Source of the DNA: a virus | Direction: 5' to 3' (one strand) | Length of the DNA: 35,653 nucleotides | Virus record (IMG/VR): IMGVR_UViG_3300043548_000234 | Coordinates: 1 to 35,653 of that record | In this document: positions 1 to 17,757 of the stretch, piece by piece | How positions within the stretch are numbered: the stretch's first letter is position 1 | Layout of the letters: each line of letters begins with the position of its first letter | Notes under the pieces: generated by a model | Databases searched by the model: none | Seen by the model: the letters and a program-made list of their open reading frames with translations, nothing else | Told to the model about the DNA's origin: nothing | Made by a program: the position numbers and the translations under genes

Positions 1-42
1 GCGTAGTGCGGCAATAAGGCCGCTTTTGTATCCTTCCGCCAT
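1..42 (-). CDS. Acidic repeat protein, N-terminal fragment (cut by window edge)
   Basis: These are the first 14 codons (MAEGYKSGL...) of the gene present in full at 34431-35462. The ATG at 40-42 overlaps the TAA of the upstream tail-hub gene as TAATG. The fragment exists only because the circular genome was opened here. It is not a separate gene. Confidence 0.9.
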   Translation of the reverse strand, partial: MAEGYKSGLIAALR

Positions 43-233
43 TACATCACTCCACCGAGCTCGCTCATCGCGTGGAAGCTCGCAAACAAGGTTGTGCCGC
101 CAAGGCAGCGGATGCGCATGCGCAACGCGCCGTAGTAACCGAGGCCGGTGACGCCGACCCAAATTTCGTATGTGTTGGAAGCGCTACCCCAGCGCGCCAG
201 GTTCCACTCTGCGTCGTCCCACTCCGCGCGCTC
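1..233. repeat. Terminal direct repeat, left copy
   Basis: These 233 bases recur at 35421-35653 in the same orientation. The only difference is position 107 (A here, C at 35527). The repeat runs through the junction of two structural genes and is not flanked by an intergenic end structure. It therefore looks like the overlap of a circular or circularly permuted assembly rather than an inserted terminal repeat. The unique genome length is then 35,420 bp. The mismatch changes a Cys codon to a Gly codon in the tail-hub protein. Confidence 0.95.
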
Positions 234-1628
234 TTCGCCGACAAACGACGGCGAGCCTGCAACGCTTTGAAATGAATACTGTGTATTGAGGCGCAGCTTT
301 AGCGATGGAGGCTGACGCGCTAGAAATACCGGGCGTACCATCGTGAACCGCTTGAGTTGTCCAGGCGTGCCGAAGGCGTTGAAGGCGGTTTGAATTTCGC
401 CCTCGACCGCTTCTCCGCCGGTGCCGTCAACGGCAACTTGATCAAGCTCGCCAACGAATGCTTTCGCGACGCGGTTGTCGTCAGTCGCGAAATACACCTC
501 GCCGTTGAGAAGCGCCGCAGCCACCATCGGGATGTCGGTAAACGTGCACCATGCGCCGGTGTTTACGTTCATCGCGTACTGAACAAACCGCCCACTGATC
601 TCTGGCGGCTTAATTACGAGCACGTCGCTGTCAGGGACGAGGAATAAGTCCCACTGCACATCGTCTCGATACTCGCCAATGACCGGCGATAGCAAAGACT
701 GAATTTTCTGCGACGGTCCCGGTTGAATCTCAGAGAACTGCCCGTTGACCAAGCGCGACATCGGCACAAGGCCGAGCTCGGAAAGCAGCATCACGTCGCC
801 GCCAAAGTTTGTGAAGAATCTGCCGTACTTCGGCACGGGGCCGACGTACCAGACGCCTTTCAGCCCGAACTTCGTCGGGTCCGACGGGTCGGTGCCTTGC
901 CACACGCCAATATCGCCCTGGCTGCCCACGACGACCAGGTAGTCGTCAATGCCGACGCCGGCGTCGAGCGTCCAGTTGACGAGGCCGCGGACATAGCCGC
1001 CGTTGCGCAAGATCGAGCCCATCGGGAACTCGGTTGCGGTGCCGGTGATCGCGTCCACGGTGTCGAGGTAGTAAACACTAGCGCTGTCCTTCACGGTGAA
1101 CCACACACGGTTCTTCCACACGGCGACGCTCGTCGGATCTGCAGGAAGCCCGGTAACGGTCTGCTGCGTCCACGTCGCGCCGTCATACGTCCAGTACCCG
1201 GCGCCAGGCGACACGGCGAGCAAATACATGCCCGAGGTCGTCGCAAACTGCGTCGTGTTCCACACGTCATCGTCGCTGCCCGTCGCGAGCTGCGAAACGG
1301 CAGGCGGGTCTGTGGTTACGTCCCAGATGTCGCCGGCAGACGCCGCAAATACTTTGTTGTTTGCCGGATCTGGCGCGTTGTAGGAGAAGATCGATACGAT
1401 CGGATCTTCGAGCGCAGCGGTGTGGTATCGCCAGCCTTTGCGCAGTTCGGAGCCCGTCTGCTTCGGAATGAAGTTGCGCATCACCAACGCGTCGGTGGGC
1501 GCCATGTTGCTGATAGGGTCGCGATAGTTAAGACCACCAACGGGCGCCGGTACCACAAACAGGTTAGACACCTGCGCGGCCGCGGAGCGCCGAGGCGCTT
1601 TCCACGTCTTGAGAGGTATTAGCGGCAT
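42..1628 (-). CDS. Tail-hub / DNA-stabilisation protein
   Basis: A 528-residue protein placed directly after a gp4-like adaptor gene in the head-tail joining block. The N-terminal part has a GGLNYRDPI segment followed by a stretch with MAPTDALVMRNF and RKGW. This pattern of a Gly-Gly-Leu turn, an A(L/V)xxxNF segment and a basic-Gly-Trp is common in podovirus tail-hub or packaged-DNA stabilisation proteins (P22 gp10 / T7 gp12 type). The rest is rich in short beta strands and aromatic residues, consistent with a propeller-like structural protein. The start overlaps the stop of the preceding gene by one base (TGATG), and the stop overlaps the next ATG, so translation is probably coupled. Near the C-terminus codon 105-107 is Cys here, but the right-end copy gives Gly. 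Assignment to a structural role is firm; the precise family is inference. Confidence 0.75.
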   Translation of the reverse strand: MPLIPLKTWKAPRRSAAAQVSNLFVVPAPVGGLNYRDPISNMAPTDALVMRNFIPKQTGSELRKGWRYHTAALEDPIVSIFSYNAPDPANNKVFAASAGDIWDVTTDPPAVSQLATGSDDDVWNTTQFATTSGMYLLAVSPGAGYWTYDGATWTQQTVTGLPADPTSVAVWKNRVWFTVKDSASVYYLDTVDAITGTATEFPMGSILRNGGYVRGLVNWTLDAGVGIDDYLVVVGSQGDIGVWQGTDPSDPTKFGLKGVWYVGPVPKYGRFFTNFGGDVMLLSELGLVPMSRLVNGQFSEIQPGPSQKIQSLLSPVIGEYRDDVQWDLFLVPDSDVLVIKPPEISGRFVQYAMNVNTGAWCTFTDIPMVAAALLNGEVYFATDDNRVAKAFVGELDQVAVDGTGGEAVEGEIQTAFNAFGTPGQLKRFTMVRPVFLARQPPSLKLRLNTQYSFQSVAGSPSFVGEERAEWDDAEWNLARWGSASNTYEIWVGVTGLGYYGALRMRIRCLGGTTLFASFHAMSELGGVM

Positions 1629-2383
1629 CAGCCGACGCCGCCGTACCCAGTGTCGGGCGTGTTAGTCAGCGGCTGGATGTACGGGTATCGATAGGCGCGC
1701 ACCATCGAAACGACACTCGCGCCCTTCTCATTTCCCTTCCGGTTTTCAAAGTTGACGTGGAAGTCGCGCATCGCCGCGCTCGAGTCGAGCCCCTTCATTT
1801 CAAGCCACTTCGCGCGAGCGAGCAGCGTGACGAGGTACGAGTCGAGCAGAATCACGTCACCGTTTTTGGTGGCGCGGTTCTTGTAGAGATCCGCGTTATC
1901 CTGGTCGCGCACCCATGCGACCGACTGGTAGTAAAACGAGAGGGTTTGGGCGGACGTGGGTGGCGACAGGATATAGAGCTTGTTCTCCCGCACCTGCCAA
2001 TAAAATGACAGCGTCGGGAGAGTTTGACGGATCAGCAGCTGCTGCCAAAACTGCGGCGAGATAGGCCCAATGGCGGGCCACTGCTCGGTGCTATTCCACT
2101 GCGTCTGATCAACGAATTCGTAGAAGTCTTCCGGCAGATCAAACGCACGCTCCGATTGCCCGGCAGACTCTGCCTCAATCGACATCGTGTGAACTTTCTG
2201 CAGCTCCTGCCAGTCGTTCATCGACAGCAGATCGATGCCGGCCAAGTTAACGGCCTGCACCATCTGCTGCACCGACGGATCGATAGAACCCGCCGGATCG
2301 GACGGGGTCGGATAGCTCACCAGCGCGGCGACGTTTTGGACAATCGCCGAAAGGGTGCTGTCGTTGACGATCTGGAAAGCCAT
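1628..2383 (-). CDS. gp4-like head-tail adaptor protein
   Basis: A 251-residue protein. The N-terminal half is helical, with an LAGIDLLSMNDWQEL segment (near residues 48-62). It is followed by a beta-rich part ending in FYYQSVAWV (about 149-157), then a helical segment LLDSYLVTLLARAKWLEMKG. The alternation of helices with a central FDLPEDFYEFVD strand region, and a length of about 250, matches the tail tubular A / gp4-like adaptor family that docks under the portal in podoviruses. It is directly followed by the tail-hub gene, as expected for connector genes. It starts with ATG at 2381-2383, preceded on the minus strand by an AAGGAGA ribosome binding site. Confidence 0.7.
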   Translation of the reverse strand: MAFQIVNDSTLSAIVQNVAALVSYPTPSDPAGSIDPSVQQMVQAVNLAGIDLLSMNDWQELQKVHTMSIEAESAGQSERAFDLPEDFYEFVDQTQWNSTEQWPAIGPISPQFWQQLLIRQTLPTLSFYWQVRENKLYILSPPTSAQTLSFYYQSVAWVRDQDNADLYKNRATKNGDVILLDSYLVTLLARAKWLEMKGLDSSAAMRDFHVNFENRKGNEKGASVVSMVRAYRYPYIQPLTNTPDTGYGGVG

Positions 2384-2392
2384 CCGGTCTCC

Positions 2393-3001
2393 TTACTCTT
2401 CGGTGCCGCCCTTCTTCTTCGCGCCCATCATTTTGGTGATGGCCTCGATCTGGGCCTGTAGCTCTTCAATCTTGCTATCACGCGCCTTCAGCTCTTCGTT
2501 CATTTTCTCGATCGGAGCGTTGCCCTTAGCGAGCTCAATGAACGCCTTTGCGGCGCGCTTGTCTTCCTGGAATCCAAAGAACTTTTGCCCGAGGTTGTCG
2601 TTAGCATCGGCCAGCTGCTCTACGGTGTGCAGGCCAAAGAATTTGTATTCTTCAACCTTCGACGGCGTCATCTTTGGCAGCGACGAGAGCGGCGTGCCCT
2701 CGACGGCGTTACCGGCGCCGGCCTTCCATTTCTCGTACTTGTCGGCAAACCGACGCGCGTCGATCGAATCGACCGGACGCTCGACGATGCTCAGCTTGTC
2801 GCCAGGCACCATGATTCGGATGTAGTCGGTTTCCTTGTAGATTGCGCGGCCTTCCTGCTGCGACAGCCCTGGCTGAAGCACAGGCTTGCGGAAGAACTGC
2901 ACAAAAAGCTTTGCGTCACTTGAGAACCGATCCTCATCAAGGCCCGGTGCATCAGCGATCGCATTCCAATCTGTTGGCGTCGTGGTGGCATTCACTAACA
3001 T
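2393..3001 (-). CDS. Virion-block protein with C-terminal coiled coil
   Basis: A 202-residue protein of unknown exact role. I chose the ATG at 2999-3001 because a good AAGGA site lies a few bases upstream; a longer reading from 3025 is possible. The N-terminal part is polar. The middle has VEEYKFFGLHTVEQLADAND, which reads like a short helical-hairpin segment. The last 50 residues are a charged heptad-like helix (MNEELKARDSKIEELQAQ...) ending in a lysine-rich tail. It lies between capsid-associated genes and the adaptor, separated from the former by a clear terminator. A head-completion or minor virion role is inference. Confidence 0.75.
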   Translation of the reverse strand: MLVNATTTPTDWNAIADAPGLDEDRFSSDAKLFVQFFRKPVLQPGLSQQEGRAIYKETDYIRIMVPGDKLSIVERPVDSIDARRFADKYEKWKAGAGNAVEGTPLSSLPKMTPSKVEEYKFFGLHTVEQLADANDNLGQKFFGFQEDKRAAKAFIELAKGNAPIEKMNEELKARDSKIEELQAQIEAITKMMGAKKKGGTEE

Positions 3002-3021
3002 GTGGTTTTCCTTTTTTGTGA

Positions 3022-3050
3022 TCAAAGAAAAGCGGGGCCGAAGCCCCGCT
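3022..3050 (-). terminator. Rho-independent terminator after the 62-residue gene
   Basis: On the minus strand an 8-bp perfect stem (AGCGGGGC pairing with GCCCCGCT) closes on a UUCG tetraloop and is followed by TTTTCTTT. This is a textbook intrinsic terminator. It lies a few bases past the stop of the 62-residue gene and just before the ribosome binding site of the next gene. It probably reduces transcription from the capsid genes into the tail genes. Confidence 0.85.
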
Positions 3051-3055
3051 CAGCA

Positions 3056-3244
3056 TTAAGCTACGTTTGTCTCGTACTTGAAGTCGGTGCCGGGCGCCCC
3101 GCCGATACGAGAGCCGCCGAGGCTCACGTTATCCGCGCCGCGCAAACCGATACCCTCAACAGCCGCCCCGGTGTCCTGCGACGCATTGGTGTCAACGACG
3201 GCCGGATTGTTGGCGTTCACTGCTGCGCTGTAAGTCGCTGCCAT
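3056..3244 (-). CDS. Small protein after the capsid gene (candidate head decoration)
   Basis: A 62-residue protein with a strong GGGAGAG ribosome binding site, starting MAATYSAAVNANNPAVVD. It is rich in Ala, Gly, Asn and Val, has no Cys, and has no membrane segment. Its position directly after the major capsid gene, and its isolation between two terminator hairpins, point to a highly expressed capsid-associated product such as a decoration or cement protein. No family is recognised, so this function is inferred from position only. Confidence 0.65.
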   Translation of the reverse strand: MAATYSAAVNANNPAVVDTNASQDTGAAVEGIGLRGADNVSLGGSRIGGAPGTDFKYETNVA

Positions 3245-3256
3245 ATTTACTCTCCC

Positions 3257-3299
3257 AAAAAAGCCTTACCGAGCGAGGGGTCACCCCACCCGGTAAGGC
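3257..3299 (-). terminator. Intrinsic terminator directly after the major capsid gene
   Basis: A perfect 9-bp inverted repeat (GCCTTACCG / CGGTAAGGC, plus positions 3263-3271 and 3291-3299) is followed on the minus strand by six T residues (3257-3262). An inner GGGG/CCCC stem strengthens it. A competing inverted repeat pairs 3277-3286 with 3302-3311, so two mutually exclusive folds are possible. The T tract runs straight into the ribosome binding site of the 62-residue gene, so read-through must occur for that gene to be expressed from the capsid transcript. Confidence 0.8.
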
Positions 3300-3323
3300 A
3301 AGGGTGACCCCACCACGAGGTCA

Positions 3324-4301
3324 TTAGTTCTGGATACGGCCCTGGAACTGAGCGCCCGAGCAAGTCATCGCGCCAGCCCACGCCAGGATCTGAACCTCGG
3401 CATCCTGGTTGATGGCATAGCGACGGTTCGGGCTCAAAGAAACCATGTTCCGGTCGCGATGCGGACGGAGGAACAGGTACTTCGTGTTGAGCATGAAGCC
3501 GGTGTTGGCCGGGCAGTACCCGCCAATACCGCCATCGAGGACGACATCCGCATCCATGAATTTCACGGTCGGGAAGCCAAGCGAGCCGGTGGCTGGATCG
3601 GTGAAGCGCTGCTGAGCCTGGAGCGAACCCATGTAGTACGACCAGTAGGTGTTGTCGAGAACGACAAGATCCGGCCGGTCAGAACCACGCACGAGCGAGG
3701 CCCAGAGGCTGTTCAACGCGCCCTGGATCGTCGAAGCCGACGGCGTCACGACAGCGGTCGAGAAGTCGTACAGCTTGGAGCGCCAGAAGGTCCAGGTAGC
3801 ACGGTCGATACCGCCGTACGTACCCGTGGTCGGGTCAGCAGGCACGGCGGCGTTGAGGCCGACGACTTCCTTACCGCCCGAGCCCGTGCCGTCGGAGTAG
3901 ACCGACTGAGCGAGCTTGTTCGCCATCGTCGACTCAGCCACGTTGATGCGAGCCTCGAGGAGGTCGATGAACGCCTCGCGGCCGCTGTTCTGCAGCTGCT
4001 CAAGGCCAGAGATCACGACCGGGCAAGCGAGCTGCTTGATGCTGAACTCGGCGGCCGAGATCACATCCTGCGCAGCGACCGGCAAAAGGTCGTAGCCCGA
4101 GTAGAACCCGGCGTTGCCGTTCTCAGCGAAAGACAGTTCCTGAAAGATGGACGAGCCACCGCCGAACGGCTTCACATTGCCGCGCTGGTTGAGCTTGGCA
4201 AGCAGAGCGTTGTTCTTGGTGACGTTGTCAGCGATCTGACGAGTACGCGACTGAATCGTAGTCGCAATGATGTCCGTAACGGACGTGTTTGCAAAAGCCA
4301 T
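3324..4301 (-). CDS. Major capsid protein
   Basis: A 325-residue protein that follows the scaffold gene, as is usual for the coat protein of tailed phages. I chose the ATG at 4299-4301, which has a GGGAG site upstream. The N-terminal helix (TSVTDIIATTIQSRTRQIADNV) is followed by a Gly-rich loop, a long helix (REAFIDLLEARINVAEST), a domain with DLVVLDNTYW, and a C-terminal strand region ending near QFQGRIQN. This layout, with a spine helix and a late beta-rich P-domain-like part, is that of HK97-fold coat proteins, and the length suits the family. It has its own promoter and structured leader upstream and a terminator downstream, consistent with high, separately set expression. Confidence 0.85.
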   Translation of the reverse strand: MAFANTSVTDIIATTIQSRTRQIADNVTKNNALLAKLNQRGNVKPFGGGSSIFQELSFAENGNAGFYSGYDLLPVAAQDVISAAEFSIKQLACPVVISGLEQLQNSGREAFIDLLEARINVAESTMANKLAQSVYSDGTGSGGKEVVGLNAAVPADPTTGTYGGIDRATWTFWRSKLYDFSTAVVTPSASTIQGALNSLWASLVRGSDRPDLVVLDNTYWSYYMGSLQAQQRFTDPATGSLGFPTVKFMDADVVLDGGIGGYCPANTGFMLNTKYLFLRPHRDRNMVSLSPNRRYAINQDAEVQILAWAGAMTCSGAQFQGRIQN

Positions 4302-4483
4302 GTATGAAACTCCCACAAGAAAAAATGATTGGGGCTCATGCCCCACCCGTTTTCGTGTGGCCTACGCGAACCTGTTCAGTCCGGTATGTCGTAGGTGGGC
4401 GCTTGCGCGCTCCTCGAGCTTCGGTGGCTGGCGGTGCTGTTGGCACACCGGGGACGTGCATTGTTGCGAATGCAACATCCCCG
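4302..4483 (-). ncRNA. Structured 5' leader of the capsid mRNA (candidate cis-acting RNA)
   Basis: This stretch between scaffold and capsid holds no gene. Taken as RNA from the predicted start near 4482, it begins with a nested hairpin. The outer stem CGGGGA/TCCCCG (4478-4483 with 4449-4454) and the inner stem TGCATT/AATGCA (4469-4474 with 4457-4462) are separated by a small internal loop. Further down, CCTACG/CGTAGG (4390-4395 with 4361-4366) can pair, and the leader ends in the terminator-like hairpin at 4330-4345. A 5'-terminal hairpin often stabilises mRNA. Whether the whole is a regulated element is inference. Confidence 0.5.
4319..4345 (-). terminator. Terminator-like hairpin just before the capsid ribosome binding site
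   Basis: On the minus strand a 6-bp stem TGGGGC/GCCCCA with an ATGA loop is followed, four bases later, by TTTTTT (4320-4325). It sits between the capsid promoter and the capsid start, about 10 bases before the GGGAG site. It could terminate scaffold read-through, act as an attenuator in the capsid leader, or modulate access to the ribosome binding site. Confidence 0.6.
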
Positions 4484-4488
4484 ATGCG

Positions 4489-4517
4489 TTTATACCATCA
4501 GCGTGAGTTGGCTGCAA
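4489..4517 (-). promoter_or_regulatory. Sigma70-type promoter for the capsid gene
   Basis: The minus strand reads TTGCAG (4512-4517), a 17-bp spacer, then TATAAA (4489-4494). Each hexamer is close to consensus and the spacing is optimal. It lies in the last codons of the scaffold gene and points at the capsid gene. The predicted start is near 4482, exactly where the leader hairpin begins. Confidence 0.6.
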
Positions 4518-5631
4518 TAGCCGCTTCGATTGCCGAGCGTACGTCTGCGGCGCCACCCTTCGGCGCCGAAAGGGTCGGGCCGCCCGAAACACTGACGGCA
4601 GCCGCCCTGGCCTTTTGCGCGGCGCCGGTCAGCTGCTGAGCGCCCTTCGCCTTTGCGCGCTGCTCCAGCACGGCACGCACTCGTGGGTTAACGAGGCACG
4701 CCTGCTTGTACGCGTCCTGCAGCGATAGCTCGCGGCCACGTCGCTCGGCTACCTCGAGAATGTCTGCCATTTCTTCGCGCACGTCGTTGCCAAACTCGGC
4801 GCGGTCAAGGAACTGCTGCACCTCGCTCGCCGCCTCCTGCTGAGCGCGCTGTTGCTGGGCGAGCTGGGCCTGCTGGAACTGCGACATAAACTGCTGCACG
4901 GGCGCAAGCTGCTGTTGCAGCACTTGCTGCACTTGGCTCTGTACCGGGTCCGCCTGCGGCACTTCTCCGGCGAGTGCGGCGTCAAGCGATTCGATAAAGT
5001 TCTGACCGAATCGGCCAACCCCGTACTGCTTAACCATCCCCGCAACAAGCTGCGCGAGCTCAGGCGCGGTACCCGTGCGCAGCTTGGCGGCAGTCGCCAT
5101 CAAGTTGTCGATCGCCTGCAGTGGATTGCTGCCCTCGGCCTTGATAAACATCTCGTAAGGGCGAATGACACCCTGCAGCTGCTCAGTGAAACGGCGAGCC
5201 TCGGCCGTTTCTTGGAGAGTCGTCTGCATCTCGCGCTCGCGGCGGGCTACCTCGGCGCGAACTTCGGGTGGCAGCTTGCTCCAGTGCTCACGCACGTCGG
5301 GGCGCCAGGAAGCCGGAGCGCGCTCCTGCGGGGCAGCCTTTGGCTCTGACTTCGGGCCAGGTTGTATGCCCTGCGCGGGCTCAGCGGCCGGCTCCGCCGC
5401 CGTTTCTGGCGCCACAGGCGGCTTGTCATCCTTTGACTTAAATCGGCCTTTGTCGTCTCGGCCGTCGGGTTTGGGAGCGTCTTTGAGCGGCTCCGACACG
5501 ACGCTCGGCTCGGCCGACATAGCCGGCTCGCTGACCGGCTCGTTAATCGGCTCAGGTGCCGGGGCGTCAACGGTATCGTCGGCGGGGACTGCGGCCTCTA
5601 AGGCGTCGCGGATCGTGGTGGGTTCTGTCAT
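4498..5631 (-). CDS. Capsid scaffolding protein
   Basis: A 377-residue protein immediately upstream of the capsid gene. Residues 1-100 are acidic, Pro/Glu/Ala-rich and disordered-looking. The middle (about 105-200) has WRPDVREHWSKLPPEV and a helical EVARREREMQTTLQETAEARR, a pattern common in phage scaffolds and related head-assembly proteins. Residues 225-270 are a Gln-rich helical stretch (many QQQ runs), and the C-terminus is a basic helical Ala-rich segment that may contact coat protein. The lack of cysteines, high charge and position all fit a scaffold. No protease domain is seen. It starts with ATG at 5629-5631, two bases after the stop of the upstream gene's reading frame, in a compact operon. 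Confidence 0.8.
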   Translation of the reverse strand: MTEPTTIRDALEAAVPADDTVDAPAPEPINEPVSEPAMSAEPSVVSEPLKDAPKPDGRDDKGRFKSKDDKPPVAPETAAEPAAEPAQGIQPGPKSEPKAAPQERAPASWRPDVREHWSKLPPEVRAEVARREREMQTTLQETAEARRFTEQLQGVIRPYEMFIKAEGSNPLQAIDNLMATAAKLRTGTAPELAQLVAGMVKQYGVGRFGQNFIESLDAALAGEVPQADPVQSQVQQVLQQQLAPVQQFMSQFQQAQLAQQQRAQQEAASEVQQFLDRAEFGNDVREEMADILEVAERRGRELSLQDAYKQACLVNPRVRAVLEQRAKAKGAQQLTGAAQKARAAAVSVSGGPTLSAPKGGAADVRSAIEAAIAANSR

Positions 5632-5634
5632 GGG

Positions 5635-5973
5635 TTACCTTCGGTTTTGTAGTCGTTCAATCGCGTCTTTGATGTCCTGTCGGCGGACTGATCCGCCGTG
5701 CTGCATATAGTGTTCGCGCGCGCGCTTGGCCTTGTCCCATTGCGACTTAAAATCGTCGGCCGTGGTCAAACCCATCTTGCGCATGTAGTCGCGGTGCTTT
5801 TTGCGGGTGCTAATGTCGGCGCCGTCAGTGGCGCGCAGCCCGTCGTAGTGCCGATCACCCCAAAGGCTGCCCAAGTGATTTGCGGCGTCCTTTTTGCGGC
5901 CCGACTGGTAGTTGGGGGTCAACTCGACTAGGTCTTTGACCTCGTCGTCCCAGATGTAGCGCTTGCGTGTCAT
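5635..5973 (-). CDS. Small conserved late protein between portal block and scaffold
   Basis: A 112-residue, strongly basic and polar protein starting MTRKRYIWDDEVKDLVEL. It has a hydrophilic middle (HYDGLRATDGADISTRKKHR) and a helical C-terminus (DDFKSQWDKAKRAREHYMQ). No catalytic motif or membrane segment is seen. Similar small proteins occur beside the scaffold gene in other podovirus head modules, but I cannot name a function. Its ribosome binding site is weak. Its start region is shared with a plus-strand promoter and gene pointing the opposite way. Confidence 0.75.
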   Translation of the reverse strand: MTRKRYIWDDEVKDLVELTPNYQSGRKKDAANHLGSLWGDRHYDGLRATDGADISTRKKHRDYMRKMGLTTADDFKSQWDKAKRAREHYMQHGGSVRRQDIKDAIERLQNRR

Positions 5974-5976
5974 TGT

Positions 5977-5985
5977 TGCTATAAT
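5977..5985 (+). promoter_or_regulatory. Extended -10 promoter inside the late operon, plus strand
   Basis: The sequence TGCTATAAT is a perfect extended -10 element (TGnTATAAT). No good -35 hexamer is visible at 16-18 bp, which extended -10 promoters do not strictly need. The predicted start is near 5992, so the transcript would begin almost at the AGGAGGT ribosome binding site (5992-5998) of the plus-strand small gene. Confidence 0.6.
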
Positions 5986-6002
5986 CTCAACAGGAGGTCT
6001 TT

Positions 6003-6173
6003 ATGGTTTACCGTTCAAAACTGACAAAGGCGCAGGAACAGGTGTTCTGGCATGAGCAAAGGAACTCACCAGGCATCGCTATAACTGCTCGCGATCGTCA
6101 GGCTGTGAAAGAAGGGAAGAAAGTGTCGGTACAGCAGCGATCGCCGGCAAAGCGACGCCCCCCGTCTTCTTGA
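6003..6173 (+). CDS. 56-residue protein encoded against the late operon (candidate moron)
   Basis: This plus-strand ORF starts with ATG four bases after a perfect AGGAGGT site and just downstream of an extended -10 promoter. The product is small and basic: MVYRSKLTKAQEQVFWHEQR, then a middle rich in Ala/Arg/Asp, and a C-terminus with AKRRPPSS. There is no membrane segment or known motif. Its last 95 bases overlap the 3' end of the 730-residue minus-strand gene. The 105-base gap between late genes that holds its promoter and start is the largest in this part of the operon. A gene with its own promoter opposing late transcription is what one expects of a lysogenically expressed moron. That role is inference; no function is assigned. 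Confidence 0.6.
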   Translation: MVYRSKLTKAQEQVFWHEQRNSPGIAITARDRQAVKEGKKVSVQQRSPAKRRPPSS

Positions 6174-8271
6174 CGTAGTCGATCACGCCCTCTAGCCCAA
6201 CGTCGGCCAGCATTTCGCGCAGCTTCATTAGGTCTTCGCGGATCGGCATGTTCTTCTCGGCCGCGAGTGCGCGGTCGATTTCGTTCATGGGCTTCATCGC
6301 CTCGCGAAGTCGCCCGGCGTCGATGCGCTTGGCCGCGTCTTTGACCGCATACTCGGGGTTGTCGACTAAACGCTCGAGGATGGCGCGCGTCGTCTGCCCG
6401 GTGCCCTGCTCTTTGGTCCAAGGCACTGTTTCAAGGCCCGTTTCAAAGCGACCCGCCACGGTGTCGCCCGACAACCCCTTCGACGCGGTTTTGACGAGCT
6501 TCTGTAGCTCTTTCGGGTCAAGCGTTTTGCCGTCGTCGCCTGGGAACTTGCCAACGTGTAGCGCATCGCCAACCTGCACCACGTCAAGGCCTTGAGCCTC
6601 AAACGCTTTGCGTGCGACCTCGAGCTCGTCGGCGCTCTTCGCGGTGTAGCGTGCGCCGGTTTTTTCGGTTGCTTTCATGCTGGCGTTGGCCGGCGTAAAT
6701 TTGTTGAAGCCGGTCGCCTCCTGGCCCGTGATCAGTCCGCGCAGCGCGCCTGCGTAGCGCATCGCGCGCGTATCCTCGGGCGCCATCTCGGGGCCGCCAC
6801 GCTTCGGCTTGCCGCTCGCGGTAGTGCCGAGATCTGACGAACGGATCGACACGAGCGGGCGCGACGTAAAGCCAGGGTTGTTTTCGACAACGCCCTGCGA
6901 GTTGACGTACGTTCCGCGCGTCGGCAACGCCTCGCGCTGGTACATCTGGAACGAGTCGTATATCGGATCTCGCATAGCGCCTGACGGTGTTCGCAGATAG
7001 GCCTCGCCCATCGCGTCGGTGTACGCCTCTCGCGTTGCTTCGTCCGCGCGATTTAGCCCGGCAAGGTGGCCCGTGTTCTCGCCCGTGACAAACTCAAAGG
7101 TGTCGTTCGCGGTGTAGCGCGGTACAGCAGAATCGATGCCGTAGCTTGCGCGCGCGACGAGCTCCTCTTCGCTCGGCGCCTTGAGCGGTCGCTTCTTTTC
7201 GCGCAGCGCTTTTTTCACCGCGCTTGCGTAGTCGCCTTTGTACTTCTCAAGGCGTTGAGCGCCCCACGTAGCAGCCTGCGCTGAGCGCGGCGTCCACTCG
7301 TAGCCTTCTGGCAGCACGTCCTTGCCAAAGCCTTTGCGCTGAGCCGTGTCGGCCAGCACCAGATTCTCGCCAGTCAAAAATCCGTGCTCTTGAGGCGTAA
7401 AGCCGCGAGAGAAATTCTCGCCGTATCCCATGACACGGCCGTGCCAAATGTCGTTCGCGGTCTTGTACAAAGATTCCGACGGGATTGTTGCGTCTTTTGC
7501 GTCAGCGTACGGGCCGGTCTTCTTCCCGAGCCGCACCGCAGCCGGGTCAATATCGAAACCGCCCGTAGCATTCTCACTGTACGCGCGCGCAACGTTGCGT
7601 GCCTGCGATCCAGTGCGCGGTACGGCATCTTCGCCGCGCAAGACTTTGGCGTTGTGCTGCCGCAGCAGTGCACCGACCTCAACCTCTGGGGTCGCCTGCG
7701 GACTGTAAGCCGCACCGCCTCGCGCAAACATCGACGCCATCGCAGGATCGCCGCCCGACACTTCTGTCGCGGTATCGCGCGCGCGGTCGTACCAGTTGGC
7801 GTTGAATGCGCCCTCTTCGACTTTGCGCAGCGCCGCCTGGCGATTGCGCGAAAGTTTCTGCGGGCTGTCGACATCTGCCGGAGCGCCGACGTACTTACCT
7901 TCCGGCGTGCGCTTTAAGTGATCGCCGCGTAGCGCCATGCGCTGCGCTTCAGCGTAATCGGTAACGTTGTCAAAGACAGTGCCGACCGCCTTCTTGCTTT
8001 TTTTGCCGCCTTTCTTTGCGGCCATCATCACCGTGCGCGGGATGCCGCCTACGACGGGAACCATGCCTAGCGTCGAAAGTCCCATACCGAGCACGTCGCC
8101 TTCGCGGCGAGCGCGCTCAAAGTCTCGAGCGCTGAGTGCCTGACCTACGCCAGGCAAAAATCCCGCGGCGATATCAACGCCCATGTCGGCGAGGTCGGCA
8201 TCCTCGCGGTTATCTAGCGAGGTAAAAATACCAGCGCGGCGACGAAGCTCTTCGACGTACGGGTTCGCCAT
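6079..8271 (-). CDS. 730-residue late protein of unknown function, between portal and scaffold
   Basis: A large protein encoded in the head module. Residues about 25-90 hold a hydrophobic Gly-rich stretch (DMGVDIAAGFLPGVGQALSA and GLSTLGMVPVVGG), followed by a Lys-rich segment (AAKKGGKKSKKAV). The middle is polar, with many Arg/Ala/Gly and the segment GFTPQEHGFLTGENLVLADT. A C-terminal hydrophobic stretch (GGVALPAIAAVPTLSSLLS) ends the protein. I recognise no enzyme motif. Large proteins at this position are often packaged head proteins, and the paired hydrophobic ends resemble proteins delivered with DNA, but this is inference. It begins three bases after the portal stop, so it is in the same operon. 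Confidence 0.7.
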   Translation of the reverse strand: MANPYVEELRRRAGIFTSLDNREDADLADMGVDIAAGFLPGVGQALSARDFERARREGDVLGMGLSTLGMVPVVGGIPRTVMMAAKKGGKKSKKAVGTVFDNVTDYAEAQRMALRGDHLKRTPEGKYVGAPADVDSPQKLSRNRQAALRKVEEGAFNANWYDRARDTATEVSGGDPAMASMFARGGAAYSPQATPEVEVGALLRQHNAKVLRGEDAVPRTGSQARNVARAYSENATGGFDIDPAAVRLGKKTGPYADAKDATIPSESLYKTANDIWHGRVMGYGENFSRGFTPQEHGFLTGENLVLADTAQRKGFGKDVLPEGYEWTPRSAQAATWGAQRLEKYKGDYASAVKKALREKKRPLKAPSEEELVARASYGIDSAVPRYTANDTFEFVTGENTGHLAGLNRADEATREAYTDAMGEAYLRTPSGAMRDPIYDSFQMYQREALPTRGTYVNSQGVVENNPGFTSRPLVSIRSSDLGTTASGKPKRGGPEMAPEDTRAMRYAGALRGLITGQEATGFNKFTPANASMKATEKTGARYTAKSADELEVARKAFEAQGLDVVQVGDALHVGKFPGDDGKTLDPKELQKLVKTASKGLSGDTVAGRFETGLETVPWTKEQGTGQTTRAILERLVDNPEYAVKDAAKRIDAGRLREAMKPMNEIDRALAAEKNMPIREDLMKLREMLADVGLEGVIDYVKKTGGVALPAIAAVPTLSSLLSQPDDREQL

Positions 8272-8274
8272 CTC

Positions 8275-10212
8275 TTACGCTCCCGGCAGGATTGGTGGAA
8301 GTTGCGGGTTAGGCTGCATCGCGGCCTGCGCCATTGGCGCGCGCATCGCGTTTAGCTGCAGCACCTTCTGCTCCGCTTCGGCGCGAGTATTGAGCGCTTT
8401 GGCCTTGCGCTCTTCAGCGCCGGCCATCTTCTCGGCGACTTCGGCCTGCTGCAGCGGCGACGGCTGCGGGGGCTGCATGCCCTGGTTCTGCATCTGCGCA
8501 ATCGCCTGGTCGAGCACGCCCTCGATCTCGCCCGAAACTCGGAATTTCGACACGCTCCACTGCAGCAAACGCAGCAGGTACGGCGCCGCACCAGGCACAG
8601 CCTGCGCCATTGGCGAGACTTGCGAGATAAACGCACCGAGTCCCTGCATGAATTGAACGGCGGCGTCGCGCTCGGCGGCCCAGTCCATTGCGGCCATGCT
8701 GTCCGCCTCGACCGAGATGCGGTATTCAGCGAGCTCCTCGTCTTTGATCAATTCGATCGCCGCTTGCGCATACTGCGCATCTGGCGTGCGCATGATGTTT
8801 GAGCGCTGAGCGATCGTCTCGGGCTGGAAGTGCTTGGCAATAATCTCAGCCTTGATGCGAAGCGCCTCGGTGATCCACTCGGCGATGTAAAACTGCATCA
8901 ACTGGATGCGCGTCGAGCCGAACTGCGCCTTGATCTGCTGCGCGGTGGCGGTCTCTGACGCCCGTGACGATCCTCGCATTACGTCAGAGATGCCGAGCAC
9001 CTCGTAGATCTGCACCGTCTTGTCTTGGCGGTACTGTCGCAGGCGGTCGATGCAATTGACGACCTGCTCGATCGGGGCAAAATCGACCTTACCCTTAACG
9101 CCGCCCGACTCGGCGAACATCGCCCAGTTGTCGACGGGGATCAGCTGATTCTCCGCCGCCTGCGAGAACATGCGGCCAACCGAATCTCCCGCGGCTTTGT
9201 CGTAGACGCCAGTTACTTTTGCGGCGCGGGTGAGCCAGGTGATGCGGGTATTGATCTCGTCGAGCTCGTTGAACTGATCCTCGGCAAAAATGTAATCCGC
9301 GCGCGGCATGAAGTTGCTCGAGGTGACGTTAGCGATCACCGGCTTCGGACACGGGAAAAACTTGTCGAGCCGTAGCGGGTCGTCCTTCACGTCGAGAATG
9401 ATTTCGCAGCCTTTGGCAAGCCAGTAGACGCGCTTGTCTTCTTTGTTCCAGATCTCGAACACTTCCGCCTTCGACCACACGTCGTGCGCGGGCTGCATGT
9501 CGGCGGCGTCTTTTGGAGCCGTGCTCGAGGTTGGTGCCTGCTTGGCGATGTCTTCGCCAAAGCGTTTCCCGAGCTGGTCTTTGGTCATGTACACACGGCG
9601 TGCGACCCATCGAACCTCGTTCCAAGTGCGCGCGGGTGACCAGAAAAAATCCTTCCAGTAGATGTAATCGACCGGCGCGTCCTCGTTGACGATGCGCTCA
9701 AAGGTCGATGCGGGGGCGATCTCCTCGCCCGTGAGCGGGTCGAACTGCGCCGGGATCTCCTCGACGACGGTCTCGACCTCGTACCGCTCCCAGATCTGGC
9801 CCATGCCGACGATCAGCCAATCTTCAATGCCCTGGCGGATCGCGGCGTCCCAATCCGAGACGTTGTCGTCAAAAGACCGATTGAGCATGCGCTGCATGAT
9901 CTGCCCGGCCACGCGCGCCTGGTCGTCATCCGCGTCCAGAAACGAACGCGCCACAGACGCGCGTGGCGGCCGGGCGTAGAGCAAGCTCAGCAAAACCTTG
10001 GTGCTCGACCAGAACAGGTTGACTCGGGACTCGTCCTCGGCCCAGTCGTCGCGCTTGTCGAGGTAGCGCTGCGTGATCTTGTCGGCCTTGTCGTGGAACT
10101 TCTGGAGCTCCTTCTTCGACGCCTCAAGCTCGGTGCTCCAGCGCTGCGCGAGGCCTTGCGGGGTATCCGCAAAGTCCTTACTCGACTCGATCCGCGTACT
10201 GCTGTTTTCCAT
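8275..10212 (-). CDS. Portal protein (P22-type)
   Basis: A 645-residue protein directly downstream of the large terminase, overlapping its stop codon by one base (TAATG). The N-terminal 110 residues are helical and charged. Hallmarks of P22-like portals follow: RVNLFWSSTKVLLSLLYARPP near residues 63-83, a WDAAIRQGIEDWLIVGMGQIWERYE stretch, and the aromatic DYIYWKDFFWSPARTWNEV. A later segment has DQFNELDEINTRI and EVLGISDVMRGSSRASETATAQQIK. The C-terminus is a long Gln/Ala-rich helix, like the barrel of long portals. The dodecameric portal forms the DNA channel and docks the terminase. The length of about 650 is at the larger end for portals and is typical of this group. Confidence 0.9.
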   Translation of the reverse strand: MENSSTRIESSKDFADTPQGLAQRWSTELEASKKELQKFHDKADKITQRYLDKRDDWAEDESRVNLFWSSTKVLLSLLYARPPRASVARSFLDADDDQARVAGQIMQRMLNRSFDDNVSDWDAAIRQGIEDWLIVGMGQIWERYEVETVVEEIPAQFDPLTGEEIAPASTFERIVNEDAPVDYIYWKDFFWSPARTWNEVRWVARRVYMTKDQLGKRFGEDIAKQAPTSSTAPKDAADMQPAHDVWSKAEVFEIWNKEDKRVYWLAKGCEIILDVKDDPLRLDKFFPCPKPVIANVTSSNFMPRADYIFAEDQFNELDEINTRITWLTRAAKVTGVYDKAAGDSVGRMFSQAAENQLIPVDNWAMFAESGGVKGKVDFAPIEQVVNCIDRLRQYRQDKTVQIYEVLGISDVMRGSSRASETATAQQIKAQFGSTRIQLMQFYIAEWITEALRIKAEIIAKHFQPETIAQRSNIMRTPDAQYAQAAIELIKDEELAEYRISVEADSMAAMDWAAERDAAVQFMQGLGAFISQVSPMAQAVPGAAPYLLRLLQWSVSKFRVSGEIEGVLDQAIAQMQNQGMQPPQPSPLQQAEVAEKMAGAEERKAKALNTRAEAEQKVLQLNAMRAPMAQAAMQPNPQLPPILPGA

Positions 10213-11549
10213 TACCCGATCCGCCGTGATTGTTTAGGCCGACAGTCCCACACGTCGTCGAGCGCGAAGCTGTAGCTGTTGCCCGAACGTATGGCGATTT
10301 TAGCATCAGCACTTGACAATTTACCAGAAATCGGTTTCGCGGCTAGCGCCAGGTATCTGAACGCGTCCGAGGCGTGCGAGTGCTGGTCGTGCTTCGGGCG
10401 GTTGCGATAAGTCTGCGTGCGCTCGTCCCATTCGCGCATGTACGCGCGCAGGTGCTCGAGCCCCTCGTACGTCGCCTTCTCGTCGAACCAGCATTTCGGC
10501 AGCACGATACGCGCGGCCTCGATGCCATCCTGCAGCGACATCTCCGGCACCAGGCGCGGCGTGATGCCCGCGACTAGGAACTGCTCAATGATCGACTTGC
10601 CCGTTTGGAGGCTTTTGGCTTTCGCGTCGTGCGGGAGGAAGACTTGCCCGACTTTGTACGGCCGTGTTTGGACCCAGTCGATGTAGTGCCCGATCGCTTG
10701 TCCGTCGGCTTCGTAGAAGTCGACGATGCGGTATCCGTCTGGGGTGGTTTGCCATCCCCACCAGCTGCAGCTGTCGGTGTATCCAAGGTCGGCGACCAGA
10801 TCCACAGGGAAATTCGGGTCAATAGCGAATTGACCCACTTGCTGACGTTCATAAAGCTCTCCGATTTGCTTGGCGTAGTACGCGCCCGGTACGGCCGCGT
10901 CGAAGGAAACCTCGTACTCGACCGCGTACGTCTCCTCGGTCATCTGCGCGCGCGCGTCGCGCAGCTCCTCCTCGGGGAGAATGCCGGTCTTGCTCGCGGG
11001 CAGCTCGAGCAGTAGGTGCGATTGCGGGTTCAGACGCGCCTCTTCGCGCATCTGCCAGAAAAAATTCTTTCCAGCCGGAGTCCCGGCGAATATCGCCGAC
11101 CCCTGGCGATCACTGAGAGCCGGCCTCAGTACGGAATACCAGGTGCTCGGGCGCATCTGCCCCACTTCGTCGAGCACACATGCGTCGACGTATATGCCGC
11201 GCATCGCGTCTGGGTTGTCAGCGCCGCCGACGTAGATCGTCGAGTAGTCGCCCGGCTTGCCGTTGTGGATCGTGATCTTGAGCTCGCTCTCGTTGGGCGG
11301 TTTCGCCCAGAGCGGCTTGGTCAGATCCTTGAGGTAGGCCCACGCGACCTTCTTCGCCTGCTCGCGAAACGGCGCGAGGTACACGACCTGCGGCTTGGGG
11401 TGCTTGCACTCGAGCGCGCTGATCACGAGGTCGGCGCACATGGCGACCGTCTTGCCGGCGCGTCGGTGAGCGACCACCACTGCCCAGCGCGCGGTGCGGT
11501 TGTGCAGCGGGGTGAAGACGGAGCGTGGCGCGTAGGTGTTGATGTCCAT
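10212..11549 (-). CDS. terL: Terminase large subunit (packaging ATPase-nuclease)
   Basis: A 445-residue packaging motor. The ATPase half has a Walker A motif AHRRAGKT (27-34) and a Walker B motif VDACVLDE (121-128, catalytic Asp-Glu at the end). A coupling-type AGTPAG follows (155-160). The RNase H-like nuclease half has VADLGYTDS (252-260, first catalytic Asp), LPHDAKAK (305-312) and SHASDAFRYL (391-400, last acidic residue). Walker A begins only 27 residues in, so there is no extra N-terminal domain. It cuts and translocates the DNA concatemer into the prohead through the portal encoded next. The small terminase lies 52 bases upstream in the same direction. Confidence 0.95.
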   Translation of the reverse strand: MDINTYAPRSVFTPLHNRTARWAVVVAHRRAGKTVAMCADLVISALECKHPKPQVVYLAPFREQAKKVAWAYLKDLTKPLWAKPPNESELKITIHNGKPGDYSTIYVGGADNPDAMRGIYVDACVLDEVGQMRPSTWYSVLRPALSDRQGSAIFAGTPAGKNFFWQMREEARLNPQSHLLLELPASKTGILPEEELRDARAQMTEETYAVEYEVSFDAAVPGAYYAKQIGELYERQQVGQFAIDPNFPVDLVADLGYTDSCSWWGWQTTPDGYRIVDFYEADGQAIGHYIDWVQTRPYKVGQVFLPHDAKAKSLQTGKSIIEQFLVAGITPRLVPEMSLQDGIEAARIVLPKCWFDEKATYEGLEHLRAYMREWDERTQTYRNRPKHDQHSHASDAFRYLALAAKPISGKLSSADAKIAIRSGNSYSFALDDVWDCRPKQSRRIG

Positions 11550-11601
11550 TTTTTCTCAACACCCCTTTTTTGGAATGCGAGAGAAGGGCGGCGGGGCCCC
11601 T

Positions 11602-12126
11602 CTACTCGCGACCCCCCGCCTGCCGATCGATGGGGGGTAGGGGGTCAGGAAATGCGCCCTCGGCCGGGCTGGCAGGCGCCTCTAGGGCTGGCCTCGGGTC
11701 TGCAACCCGAAGGTTGCCACCCTTTTCCACTGTGATATCAATGACTTGTACATCGACAGCTTGCGAGTGGGACGTAGATGGGACGTAACCCCCAACATTG
11801 CGCCCTTGCAGCCATGGAAGCTGCACAACTATTGCCCCGTCAACCTGCGCCTGTAGCTGTGCCGGGATCACCTTGGCGACCAGCCCAGCGAAGATCTGCC
11901 GGTCCTGTACGCCGCCCTGGGCGCGCTCTATGAGCCAGCCAGCCAACCCCTCTGGGTGGCATGCGCCCGGCTTGCAGGCGAGCTCTATCGCCTCCTTGAT
12001 CGTTTTGGTGACGACGTTTTGCGTGCCCTTCGGCCGACCGAGCGGATTTCCGCTCTGGCCCGCCTTGAATGGGCGCCCGCCGGCCTTCCGGCGCTGCTCG
12101 ACCGCTGTAGATTGCTGCGCGCTCAT
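11602..12126 (-). CDS. terS: Terminase small subunit (DUF5681-type)
   Basis: A 174-residue protein just upstream of the large terminase. The N-terminus carries GGRPFKAGQSGNPLGRPKGT (16-35), the basic Gly-Arg-Pro signature of DUF5681 proteins, which often stand in the small-terminase position. A helical part follows (IKEAIELACKPGA, LAGWLIERAQGG), then a variable Pro/Ala-rich tail. It is expected to recognise phage DNA and recruit the large subunit. Positions 11768-11788 inside this gene match the tandem motif that flanks attP; there they encode the segment GYVPSTSH. The role is well supported by gene order and motif. Confidence 0.8.
   Translation of the reverse strand: MSAQQSTAVEQRRKAGGRPFKAGQSGNPLGRPKGTQNVVTKTIKEAIELACKPGACHPEGLAGWLIERAQGGVQDRQIFAGLVAKVIPAQLQAQVDGAIVVQLPWLQGRNVGGYVPSTSHSQAVDVQVIDITVEKGGNLRVADPRPALEAPASPAEGAFPDPLPPIDRQAGGRE
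11768..11788 (-). repeat. attP-type tandem motif inside terS
   Basis: Read on the minus strand this is TTACGTCCCA, one T, then CTACGTCCCA. It matches the two 21-bp attP-flanking copies (22448-22468 and 22644-22664) at 20 of 21 positions. The 11-bp period is about one helical turn. It lies within coding sequence. Confidence 0.8.
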
Positions 12127-12171
12127 CGCGTGGCGAGTGTGCCACTGCGATGCGCTATTCGCAACGTGGTG

Positions 12172-12315
12172 CTACAACCCTGACGCCAAGCCCCAGCCGA
12201 ACTTGAACAGCGCAACGACCCAATACGACACGAACCCAAGCGCCGGCAGGCCAAGCCCGATCACGCCAACCAGGCCAATCGTCCAAGCCCAAATCTCTTT
12301 GTCTTGCTCATCCAT
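12172..12315 (-). CDS. 47-residue single-span membrane protein upstream of terS
   Basis: A short ORF with a strong AGGAGGT site about five bases before ATG (12313-12315). The protein begins MDEQDKEIWAW and is then almost entirely hydrophobic (TIGLVGVIGLGLPALGFVSY, then WVVALFKFGW), ending ASGL. This makes one long or two short membrane segments with an acidic N-terminus. It is the first gene of the late operon, 45 bases before terS. A holin-like or membrane-associated role is possible, but a recognisable holin exists elsewhere, so function is open. Confidence 0.7.
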   Translation of the reverse strand: MDEQDKEIWAWTIGLVGVIGLGLPALGFVSYWVVALFKFGWGLASGL

Positions 12316-12417
12316 CGAGCACCTCCTCTGCCCCGCAACCTACCACGCCGCACTCTGCAACAAAGTTTGCTCCTGCTCCCCACACCCCTACTAAATGCGA
12401 GCGCGCGCACTCAAAAA

Positions 12418-12472
12418 CGCCCCTTCGCAGGGGGGATGGCCCCGCGCTGGGCGCGCGGGCCATGCCATCCCC
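12418..12472. other. Strong GC hairpins upstream of the late operon
   Basis: An outer stem GGGGATGG (12432-12439) pairs with CCATCCCC (12465-12472). An inner stem CCCGCGC (12441-12447) pairs with GCGCGGG (12453-12459). Next to it, on the minus strand, a 4-bp CCCC/GGGG stem is followed by CGTTTTTG, resembling a weak intrinsic terminator in front of the first late gene. Such a leader terminator would be consistent with late antitermination, but no antiterminator gene was identified. Confidence 0.4.
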
Positions 12473-12615
12473 GCCCTGCTGCGACTGCCTGCGATCGCTA
12501 TGCGGCCGCATGCGCACGATAGCGAGCGCACGTTTAGCCGGTCAGCCAGGCAACCAGACCGAAAGTGATCTCCCGCACATTCAAAAATATTTTTTGTATT
12601 GTTGCGATTTTCTCA

Positions 12616-12644
12616 TTGCCAATGTGCGATACCTAACATAATAT
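12616..12644 (+). promoter_or_regulatory. Sigma70-type promoter of the small-gene early operon
   Basis: TTGCCA (12616-12621), a 17-bp spacer and TAATAT (12639-12644) form a good promoter in an AT-rich patch. The predicted start near 12651 leaves a leader of about 54 bases before the first ATG at 12705. The palindrome ATGCAT overlaps the -10 end and is repeated 15 bp downstream, a possible operator. Confidence 0.55.
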
Positions 12645-12704
12645 GCATTCATATTGGATGCATTTTTGTATGCCAATAACACCACACAAGGGGAGAAGAA
12701 CAAC

Positions 12705-12917
12705 ATGTCAGTGCTTGTGATCGGTCCTCAGATGGACCTTGCCGTCCTTGCCGAAGCTGCCTGCTGCGACCGCGCCGTAGCCGCGTTCATGCTGCTGGAG
12801 TTGCTGGCCGACGGGCACACAGAAAAGACCTTTGATGACCTCGATGAGGACGAGTTTGCGCGCGCCCTCGACCGCGCTTGTGACCGCATGGATCGGCTCG
12901 AGATCCCTTGTGAGTGA
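12705..12917 (+). CDS. Early small acidic protein 1
   Basis: A 70-residue protein. I chose ATG 12705 because AAGGGGAG lies about 9 bases upstream; an in-frame start at 12654 has no such site. It begins MSVLVIGPQMDLAVLAEAAC, and the second half is very acidic and helical (TFDDLDEDEFARALDRACD). There are four cysteines. No family is recognised. It is the first gene after a strong promoter, and its stop overlaps the next gene, so it heads a translationally coupled cluster of small early genes. Host takeover or counter-defence roles are typical of such genes, but nothing here proves one. Confidence 0.65.
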   Translation: MSVLVIGPQMDLAVLAEAACCDRAVAAFMLLELLADGHTEKTFDDLDEDEFARALDRACDRMDRLEIPCE

Positions 12918-13110
12918 GCGAATTGAGTACCGCGGCCGGGAGTCGCGTCACGGCAAGAACGTACACACGCTGTGTGTACACGCCGACGACGTGACCGACC
13001 GCGAGCTTGTCGAGTTCGTCGAGCGTGCCGGGCGAGACCACAACTCGTTCGGCACGCACGTCGAGCGGTATATAGGAGGCACCGCGCGTGTTCTCTTTTA
13101 CACCGACTGA
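12910..13110 (+). CDS. Early small protein 2
   Basis: A 66-residue protein starting at GTG 12910, overlapping the previous gene by eight bases. It reads VSERIEYRGRESRHGKNVHT, then LCVHADDVTDRELVEFVERA, and ends in GGTARVLFYTD. The composition suggests a small compact alpha/beta fold. No motif is recognised. A longer in-frame start at 12832 would lie entirely inside the previous gene and lacks a ribosome binding site. Confidence 0.55.
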   Translation: MSERIEYRGRESRHGKNVHTLCVHADDVTDRELVEFVERAGRDHNSFGTHVERYIGGTARVLFYTD

Positions 13111-13129
13111 TGCGATATTCGGTACACGT

Positions 13130-13318
13130 ATGTCTGACCACATCAATACACCGACACCGGCCAAGGTCGCAGCCCTGCGCGAAGCGGTCGAGCGCGCAGA
13201 CACGCTCGCCGTCGTCCAGGCGCGACTGATCGACAACCAACAACGCGTCATCGAGTTGCTCGAGGGACGCATCAAAACGCTCGAGTCGATGGTGGCCGAG
13301 CTGAAGTGCAACTACTGA
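13130..13318 (+). CDS. Early small coiled-coil protein 3
   Basis: A 62-residue protein starting at ATG 13130. After a polar start (MSDHINTPTPAKVAALREAV) nearly the whole chain is an amphipathic helix with leucines at heptad spacing (QQRVIELLEGRIKTLESMVA). This points to an oligomerising coiled coil. The ribosome binding site is weak. An in-frame GTG at 13088 would extend it. The function is unknown. Confidence 0.55.
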   Translation: MSDHINTPTPAKVAALREAVERADTLAVVQARLIDNQQRVIELLEGRIKTLESMVAELKCNY

Positions 13319-13328
13319 GGAACCCGCC

Positions 13329-13580
13329 ATGAGTTTCTGGGAATCGTTCTACGTCGTCGCCGTGATTGCCTCCGCGGTCTCGTCGACTGTGCTGCTCGCC
13401 TGGTTCTTTTACGACGTGTTTTGGCGTCACGCTCCGCGCACCGGCGCGCGCTACGAGCCGGACACCGAGCGCCTCGCACGCCTGCAGGCCAAGCGCCGCG
13501 CTGCCTTGCGCGAGCTTGGCGATAAGTGGGTGCTGCACCCGAACCAACCCGCGGTGAAGTGGGGATACAAGCATGACTGA
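13329..13580 (+). CDS. Early membrane protein 4 (single N-terminal span)
   Basis: An 83-residue protein with a GAGGA site eight bases before ATG. Residues about 7-30 (FYVVAVIASAVSSTVLLAWF) form one membrane span. The following part is basic and helical (LARLQAKRRAALREL) and probably cytoplasmic. The last codons overlap the next gene's ATG. No known family. A small inner-membrane anchor expressed early could act in superinfection exclusion, which is only a suggestion. Confidence 0.65.
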   Translation: MSFWESFYVVAVIASAVSSTVLLAWFFYDVFWRHAPRTGARYEPDTERLARLQAKRRAALRELGDKWVLHPNQPAVKWGYKHD

Positions 13581-13749
13581 GTTCATCACCCTCACCGGCC
13601 ATACCGACCACTACAGCGTCGAGACCAAGCTCGACGAGCACACCACGAGCGACGAGGCCGTCAAAGCCTTTGCGCACTTCCTGCTCGGCATGGGCTACGC
13701 CGTCGAGGCCGTCGCCGCCTCGCTCGAGAAGGTGTCGCATGAACTCTGA
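13573..13749 (+). CDS. Early small acidic protein 5
   Basis: A 58-residue protein starting at ATG 13573, overlapping the end of the previous gene. It has a strand-rich start (MTEFITLTGHTDHYSVETKL) and a helical second half (EAVKAFAHFLLGMGYAVEAV). It lies between two genes that both overlap it, which supports real coding. The function is unknown. Confidence 0.6.
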   Translation: MTEFITLTGHTDHYSVETKLDEHTTSDEAVKAFAHFLLGMGYAVEAVAASLEKVSHEL

Positions 13750-13876: not shown

Positions 13877-13957
13877 TACCTCCTGTACACGGCCCGCTCA
13901 CGCACCGAGAACCCCTAGAGACGGCGAGCTGCCCCCGTGGTGCGAGGCAGCAACCAT

Positions 13958-14700: not shown

Positions 14701-14703
14701 CGC

Positions 14704-16729: not shown

Positions 16730-16745
16730 GCCGCCCCCGCGGAAT

Positions 16746-17690: not shown

Positions 17691-17700
17691 GCCGTAACTG

Positions 17701-17729: not shown

Positions 17730-17757
17730 CCCATCGCCCCACCACGAGGCACTTACC

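Follow-up and report, generated by a model that had tools for sequence, protein, structure and literature searches.

A small antisense gene paired with the body of the late protein it faces in Mx8-related phages, and its proposed role as an immunity gene

MuF toxins of temperate phages occupy a slot directly after the portal gene, and their toxin-bearing forms are accompanied by small immunity candidates (Jamet et al. 2017, PMC5576092). The locus described here lies in a 35,653-nucleotide stretch of viral DNA (IMG/VR record IMGVR_UViG_3300043548_000234, positions 1 to 35,653), which we call the window, and it resembles these polymorphic toxins in its portal-adjacent gene with a constant N-terminus and an exchangeable body, its small associated gene and its temperate carrier. 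It differs from them in that no MuF domain is detected by Pfam or PHROGs, a short tail follows the swappable body, and the small gene runs convergently on the other strand, behind a promoter-like element of its own, whereas the MuF partner is simply the downstream gene. An opposite-strand arrangement is known from the ionophoric (pore-forming) colicins, where the immunity gene is encoded on the strand opposite the toxin gene and is read from its own promoter (PMC9517006). Those are plasmid bacteriocins, whereas the carrier here is a phage late gene with a predicted promoter facing it, and the likeness is one of layout and logic.

The polyvalent proteins of phages and conjugative elements (Iyer et al. 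2017, PMC5512222) share with this locus the ART-PolyVal and GNAT domains found in sister bodies, as well as the fold neighbours of the body in the window; here, in contrast, each protein has one or two domains, which are swapped as cassettes, some of them together with a cognate antisense gene. Morons of lambdoid-type phages are likewise extra genes with their own promoter, inserted between or opposite late genes that lie side by side in relatives, but the small gene described here is tied to the late gene it faces and is exchanged with it. What is new is thus a phage polymorphic effector (as we propose) with a cognate partner, lacking a MuF domain and with the partner gene antisense; otherwise the system is of a known kind.

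Phage context and the small plus-strand gene

The nearest named relatives of the phage chassis are the Myxococcus phages Mx8 and Mx9, which share the order portal, 112-aa gene, scaffold and capsid. The portal is 43-46% identical to that of Mx8/Mx9, and the 112-aa protein is 38-47% identical to Mx8 p46 and Mx9 p79. Mx8 has neither the effector nor the small gene, its portal gene overlapping the 112-aa homologue directly, and Mx9 has only a 171-bp ORF in that place, on the same strand. No DNA similarity between the window and named phages was found. The integrase and the CI/Cro-like genes (Table 1) make expression of the small gene in a lysogen plausible. The original prediction had set the gene among minus-strand genes for 25 kb; the minus-only stretch actually runs from about 42 to 16976, followed by the plus-strand block and then by minus-strand genes again. 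The gap holding the promoter, which had been called the largest in this part of the operon, measures 105 bp and is shorter than the 151-bp gap between capsid and scaffold genes (4347-4497). Elsewhere in the late operon, a very strong terminator-like hairpin on the minus strand (3263-3299, 16 pairs followed by TTTTTT) lies just past the major capsid gene and splits the operon.

Table 1. Features of the locus and its surroundings, in window coordinates
Feature	Position	Strand	Remark
112-aa late gene, Mx8 p46 homologue	5635..5973	-	Constant flank; transcribed away from the small gene
Dyad TGTTG-N9-CAACA spanning the -10	5974..5992	+	Candidate operator; single copy in the window
Extended -10 element TGCTATAAT	5977..5985	+	TGnTAnnnT-like form kept in family A, B and C cassettes
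Shine-Dalgarno AGGAGGT	5992..5998	+	Read from the sequence
Block replaced as a unit (730-aa body and small gene)	5998..8073		Window compared with near-identical phages
Small partner gene, family A, 56 aa	6003..6173	+	Proposed immunity protein; homologues and pN/pS
Antisense overlap of the 3' ends of the small and 730-aa genes	6079..6173		95 bp
730-aa late protein, constant N-terminal part and swappable A-type body	6079..8271	-	Proposed virion-delivered effector
Constant N-terminal segment, first 66 codons of the 730-aa protein	8074..8271	-	Common to other cargo types
Portal	8275..10212	-	PHROG portal, E=5e-157; constant flank on the other side
Cro-like gene	16746-16976	-	Divergent from the temperate block
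Temperate block	17083-22427	+	CI-like HTH (17083-17679), Sak4-like annealing, SSB-like, Cas4-domain exonuclease, tyrosine integrase (21429-22427)

The signals that had been predicted for the small gene, an extended -10 element, AGGAGGT and a 56-codon frame overlapping the end of the 730-residue late gene, were all present at the positions given in Table 1. The plus strand from 5974 to 6005, TGTTGCTATAATCTCAACAGGAGGTCTTTATG, carries the extended -10, the Shine-Dalgarno sequence and, four bases behind AGGAGGT, the ATG at 6003; the stop codon is 6171-6173. An extended -10 followed at proper spacing by AGGAGG and ATG is unique within the window and appears in 0/300 dinucleotide shuffles, and TGNTATAAT alone, which is less special, appears at least once in 36/300. 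No -35 box matches upstream of the -10. If transcription starts about 7 bases past the -10, the leader would be only about 11 bases long and the Shine-Dalgarno sequence would begin at its 5' end. Downstream, the plus strand has a terminator-like hairpin at 6257-6278, a weak one only.

A first search found the product encoded in ten IMG/VR contigs at 75-96% identity (best segment), and wherever these could be aligned the gene stood at the same place with its start, stop, Shine-Dalgarno (AGGAGG, AAGAGG or GAAGG among family A relatives) and -10 kept. Homologues at this position in related contigs are 70-95% identical to it. Over codons 2-25, which lie outside the overlap, third positions vary at 20/24 codons, first positions at 8/24 and second positions at 5/24, with a pooled pS of 0.75, a pN of 0.12 and a pN/pS of 0.16, indicating purifying selection on the protein; both this comparison and the conservation in related phages, proposed as checks along with the original prediction, came out in favour of a gene. 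Within the 31 overlapping codons, second positions vary at 13/31 and the other two at 1 and 3. The varying second positions coincide with the wobble positions of the opposing frame, so it is mainly the 730-aa gene that dictates the tail of the small protein. Distant homologues at 20-40% identity occupy the corresponding antisense position against diverged versions of the 730-aa gene (L104, L107, L108, L109 and L112, with a more doubtful case in L111). That the small frame is a real coding gene is, in our judgement, practically certain.

As had been anticipated, the product matches no recognised family. Searches with the 56 residues against PHROGs, NCBIfam and PADLOC gave nothing usable and matched no immunity family, sequence matches in the PDB were at chance level, and a Pfam hit to DUF3945 (E 0.008) fell below the cut-off and was rejected. 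With a pLDDT of 69, the structure predicted for the small protein is weak and too uncertain for a fold search. Searches of the named phages by tblastn, with this protein and with that of the second small-gene family described below (family B), gave no matches or chance matches only.

The facing protein, its pairing with the small gene and their joint exchange

The 730-aa gene lies directly downstream of the portal gene on the same strand, 3 bp away. Residues 1 to about 110 of its product are 54-69% identical across otherwise unrelated bodies, and homology to four contigs with other cargos (L122, L124, L016 and L017) resumes at 8074-8083. A constant part joined to exchangeable, unrelated bodies corresponds to the layout of polymorphic toxins, and the constant part here would serve delivery. 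The protein in the window has no match in Pfam, PHROGs or the PDB and none near the cut-off in NCBIfam, and neither it nor the sister cargos contain a MuF domain (PF04233/PF06152) by Pfam or PHROGs. Its AlphaFold2 model (mean pLDDT 82.4) is confident for residues of about 95-705; a fold search of the PDB with this model returned nothing below E 0.1, and its fold neighbours are phage proteins, some uncharacterised and others annotated as 'large polyvalent protein associated'. At the same position in L067 (1765-2679) and L072, the sister bodies carry ART-PolyVal (PF18760, E 1.3e-10, above the cut-off), in one of the two together with a GNAT acetyltransferase domain, and the antisense partner gene is absent from both. 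Other sister bodies, of 629-632 aa, contain what we take to be a HhH-GPD-like motif, which Pfam did not confirm.

Searches with the 112-aa neighbour and with the 730-aa protein yielded 80 and 30 loci, respectively. In many of these, the same promoter precedes a different small gene, belonging either to family B (66-72 aa, MKDVVIVTGDKVVRVP...) or to family C (one contig, L016), and the facing gene changes as well, having a common N-terminus and an unrelated body. Wherever the neighbour of a family A gene was readable, the facing body is A-type, the intact B-type bodies tallied were accompanied by a B gene in 28/28 cases (contigs being counted here and not independent events), and the single C gene faces a unique C-type body. 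Mixed pairs, an A gene with a B body or the reverse, were absent from the contigs tallied. The ART-PolyVal, HhH-like and 489-aa bodies have no small gene, and in these contigs a 4-bp overlap usually joins the effector stop to the start of the 112-aa gene; the flanking late genes overlap by 4 bp with no small gene in L017, L019, L052, L055 and L057. Ten contigs with an A-body gave no tblastn match to family A, and inspection found a divergent A gene in three of them (L108, L109 and L112), the copy in L108 having been aligned with family A. In L113-L117, which carry distant A-bodies, no partner gene was clearly recognisable. The bodies of L052, L068, L074 and L080, about 25% identical to that of the window, have no partner gene and show a stop-to-start fusion with the 112-aa gene; the invariant residues of the body in the window are kept in the three of these that were aligned (L052, L068 and L074). 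The small gene is very probably the cognate partner of the 730-aa protein it faces. The original prediction had looked to relatives that keep the flanking late genes and carry stops in the small frame as evidence against a gene; relatives with the flanks kept do exist, but they carry a different partner gene and a different effector instead.

Comparison of near-identical phages indicates that gene and body are replaced as one block. L122 and L124 match the window at 99% in TerL and at 100% in both portal and major capsid protein, yet differ from it in the body and the small gene. The window and L122 share 98% identity as far as 5997 and 93% from 8074 onwards, and no similarity between these edges, where the window has an A body and A gene and L122 a B body and B gene. 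The edges are nearly the same elsewhere, at 5992/8083 in L016 and 5974/8082 in L017, so that one falls inside the constant N-terminal part and the other directly after the promoter and Shine-Dalgarno sequence. The promoter is on the constant side in L122 and L124, and L017 has neither promoter nor small gene. The pairs also stay together outside this setting. A B gene with its B body occurs in L165/L166, where the body is joined to an unrelated N-terminus, and in L178-L183, where none of the portal, terminase and 112-aa reference proteins was found nearby, while an A gene with an A body and a different N-terminus is present in L107, L108, L109 and L112.

The promoter region is conserved across families. 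CAT-(n)-(G)TTG and CTCAAC hardly change among 23 cassettes, whereas the bases separating them vary and shift register, and the -10, which is TGCTATAAT in the group of the window, reads TGnTATTCT or TGnTATACT in other cassettes. More distant family B cassettes have the Shine-Dalgarno sequence further downstream of the same promoter, and in L016 the ATG follows very closely behind the -10, so that its message is likely leaderless, to judge by this spacing. Since the Shine-Dalgarno spacing shifts among cassettes while the -10 region stays, the conserved element is the promoter and not the Shine-Dalgarno context. The dyad that spans the -10 may be an operator; as a repeated phage operator it was rejected, there being no second copy in the window. 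A wide scan of IMG/VR for the promoter pattern returned only this phage group and unrelated chance sites.

One relative of the small gene was found in a bacterial chromosome. Among 84,980 bacterial and archaeal genomes, the only confirmed match was a 55-aa family A homologue (56% identical in alignment) with its own good Shine-Dalgarno sequence on a contig of a Gammaproteobacteria MAG (L198, 10001-10165), next to genes for a prolyl oligopeptidase, a TonB receptor, an M14 peptidase and a carboxylesterase. No effector body was present in the 16.6 kb of this contig that were covered. In polymorphic toxin systems, lone immunity genes are expected in chromosomes.

Proposed function and alternative explanations

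Given these observations, we propose that the small gene encodes a cognate immunity protein (antidote) for the swappable body of the 730-aa protein, a reading to which we assign a probability of roughly two in three. Counting against it are the partnerless A-like bodies of about 25% identity, the distant A-bodies of L113-L117, the missing -35 box, the weak structure of the small protein and the failure to match any immunity family or, for the 730-aa protein, any solved fold. The 730-aa protein would be a polymorphic effector, probably packaged in the virion, with a constant N-terminal part and a body exchanged between phages. The N-terminal part would load the protein into the particle, from which it would enter the cell with the DNA and act on the host, and bodies that need an antidote would carry the small convergent gene on the opposite strand. 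This gene would be read from the sigma70-like extended -10 promoter immediately ahead of the next late gene; in the lysogen, where the late operon is silent, this promoter could run and protect the cell from the effector of sister virions, and during lytic growth strong opposing late transcription would override it. In a broader version, towards which we lean only slightly, these temperate podoviruses, known only from metagenomes, share a platform whose chassis provides the N-terminal delivery part and the promoter with its dyad operator, and in which recombination at the two fixed edges swaps the effector body together with the convergent immunity gene; this platform would comprise at least three unrelated immunity families (A, B and C), new effector folds and cargo-less immunity copies in chromosomes.

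A different role for the partner, as a chaperone or packaging adaptor specific to its cargo or as an inhibitor needed only during storage and loading of the effector, would explain the one-to-one coupling and the exchange as a block equally well, would suit the small size of 56-68 aa, and would allow the partnerless A-like bodies to load unaided. We nevertheless consider this role unlikely, as such a gene would be expected in the late operon, yet this one lies on the opposite strand behind its own promoter, and the copy in a bacterial chromosome that lacks the cargo fits protection better.

Compared with an antidote, an independent host-modifying or defence moron, as the gene was originally read, is very improbable. 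That reading is right in that the gene encodes a protein behind a promoter-like element of its own and is absent where the flanking late genes are adjacent and fused stop-to-start, and the temperate carrier agrees with it, but independence from the neighbouring late gene was not borne out; in the contigs examined, the presence and identity of the gene follow the 730-aa body perfectly, and the two are swapped as one block. A moron sitting by chance in a recombination hotspot would leave unexplained that no A/B mixed pairs were found and that the pairs stay joined on different chassis.

Equally improbable is a transcript that works mainly as antisense RNA directed at the 3' end of the late gene, with coding secondary. 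The 95-bp convergent overlap and the conserved DNA within it would suit such an RNA, but conservation there tracks the late gene's wobble positions, as coding by that gene alone predicts, while outside the overlap selection on the amino acids is purifying and the Shine-Dalgarno sequence and start are conserved; the homologues of divergent sequence and the cargo-less chromosomal copy would also go unexplained. A chance ORF behind a chance promoter in an AT-rich gap, for which the frequency of single TGNTATAAT copies in shuffled sequence might be cited, is ruled out by the low pN/pS, the conservation of gene and promoter across contigs and the failure of any shuffle to reproduce the full unit.

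If the immunity reading is correct, an anonymous 56-codon ORF becomes a handle on a proposed family of virion-associated effectors without a recognised domain, and the idea of phage polymorphic toxins extends beyond MuF proteins to Mx8-like podoviruses. The A/A, B/B and C/C combinations would provide testable candidate toxin/antidote pairs with built-in specificity controls, and the colicin-like antisense layout would decouple the antidote from the late operon. Automatic annotation normally drops small genes that overlap others in antisense, and similar partners have therefore probably been missed elsewhere.

Damaged effector genes were also seen beside open small genes. In L010/L156 (1-395), the effector is down to 122 codons, its N-terminus running out of frame into the 3' end, and the family A gene is open to the contig limit, possibly as a lone antidote. 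In L176 (about 5940-6940), the frame of a B-type effector is broken (241 codons) and the B gene is intact, which may reflect either decay or a sequencing error.
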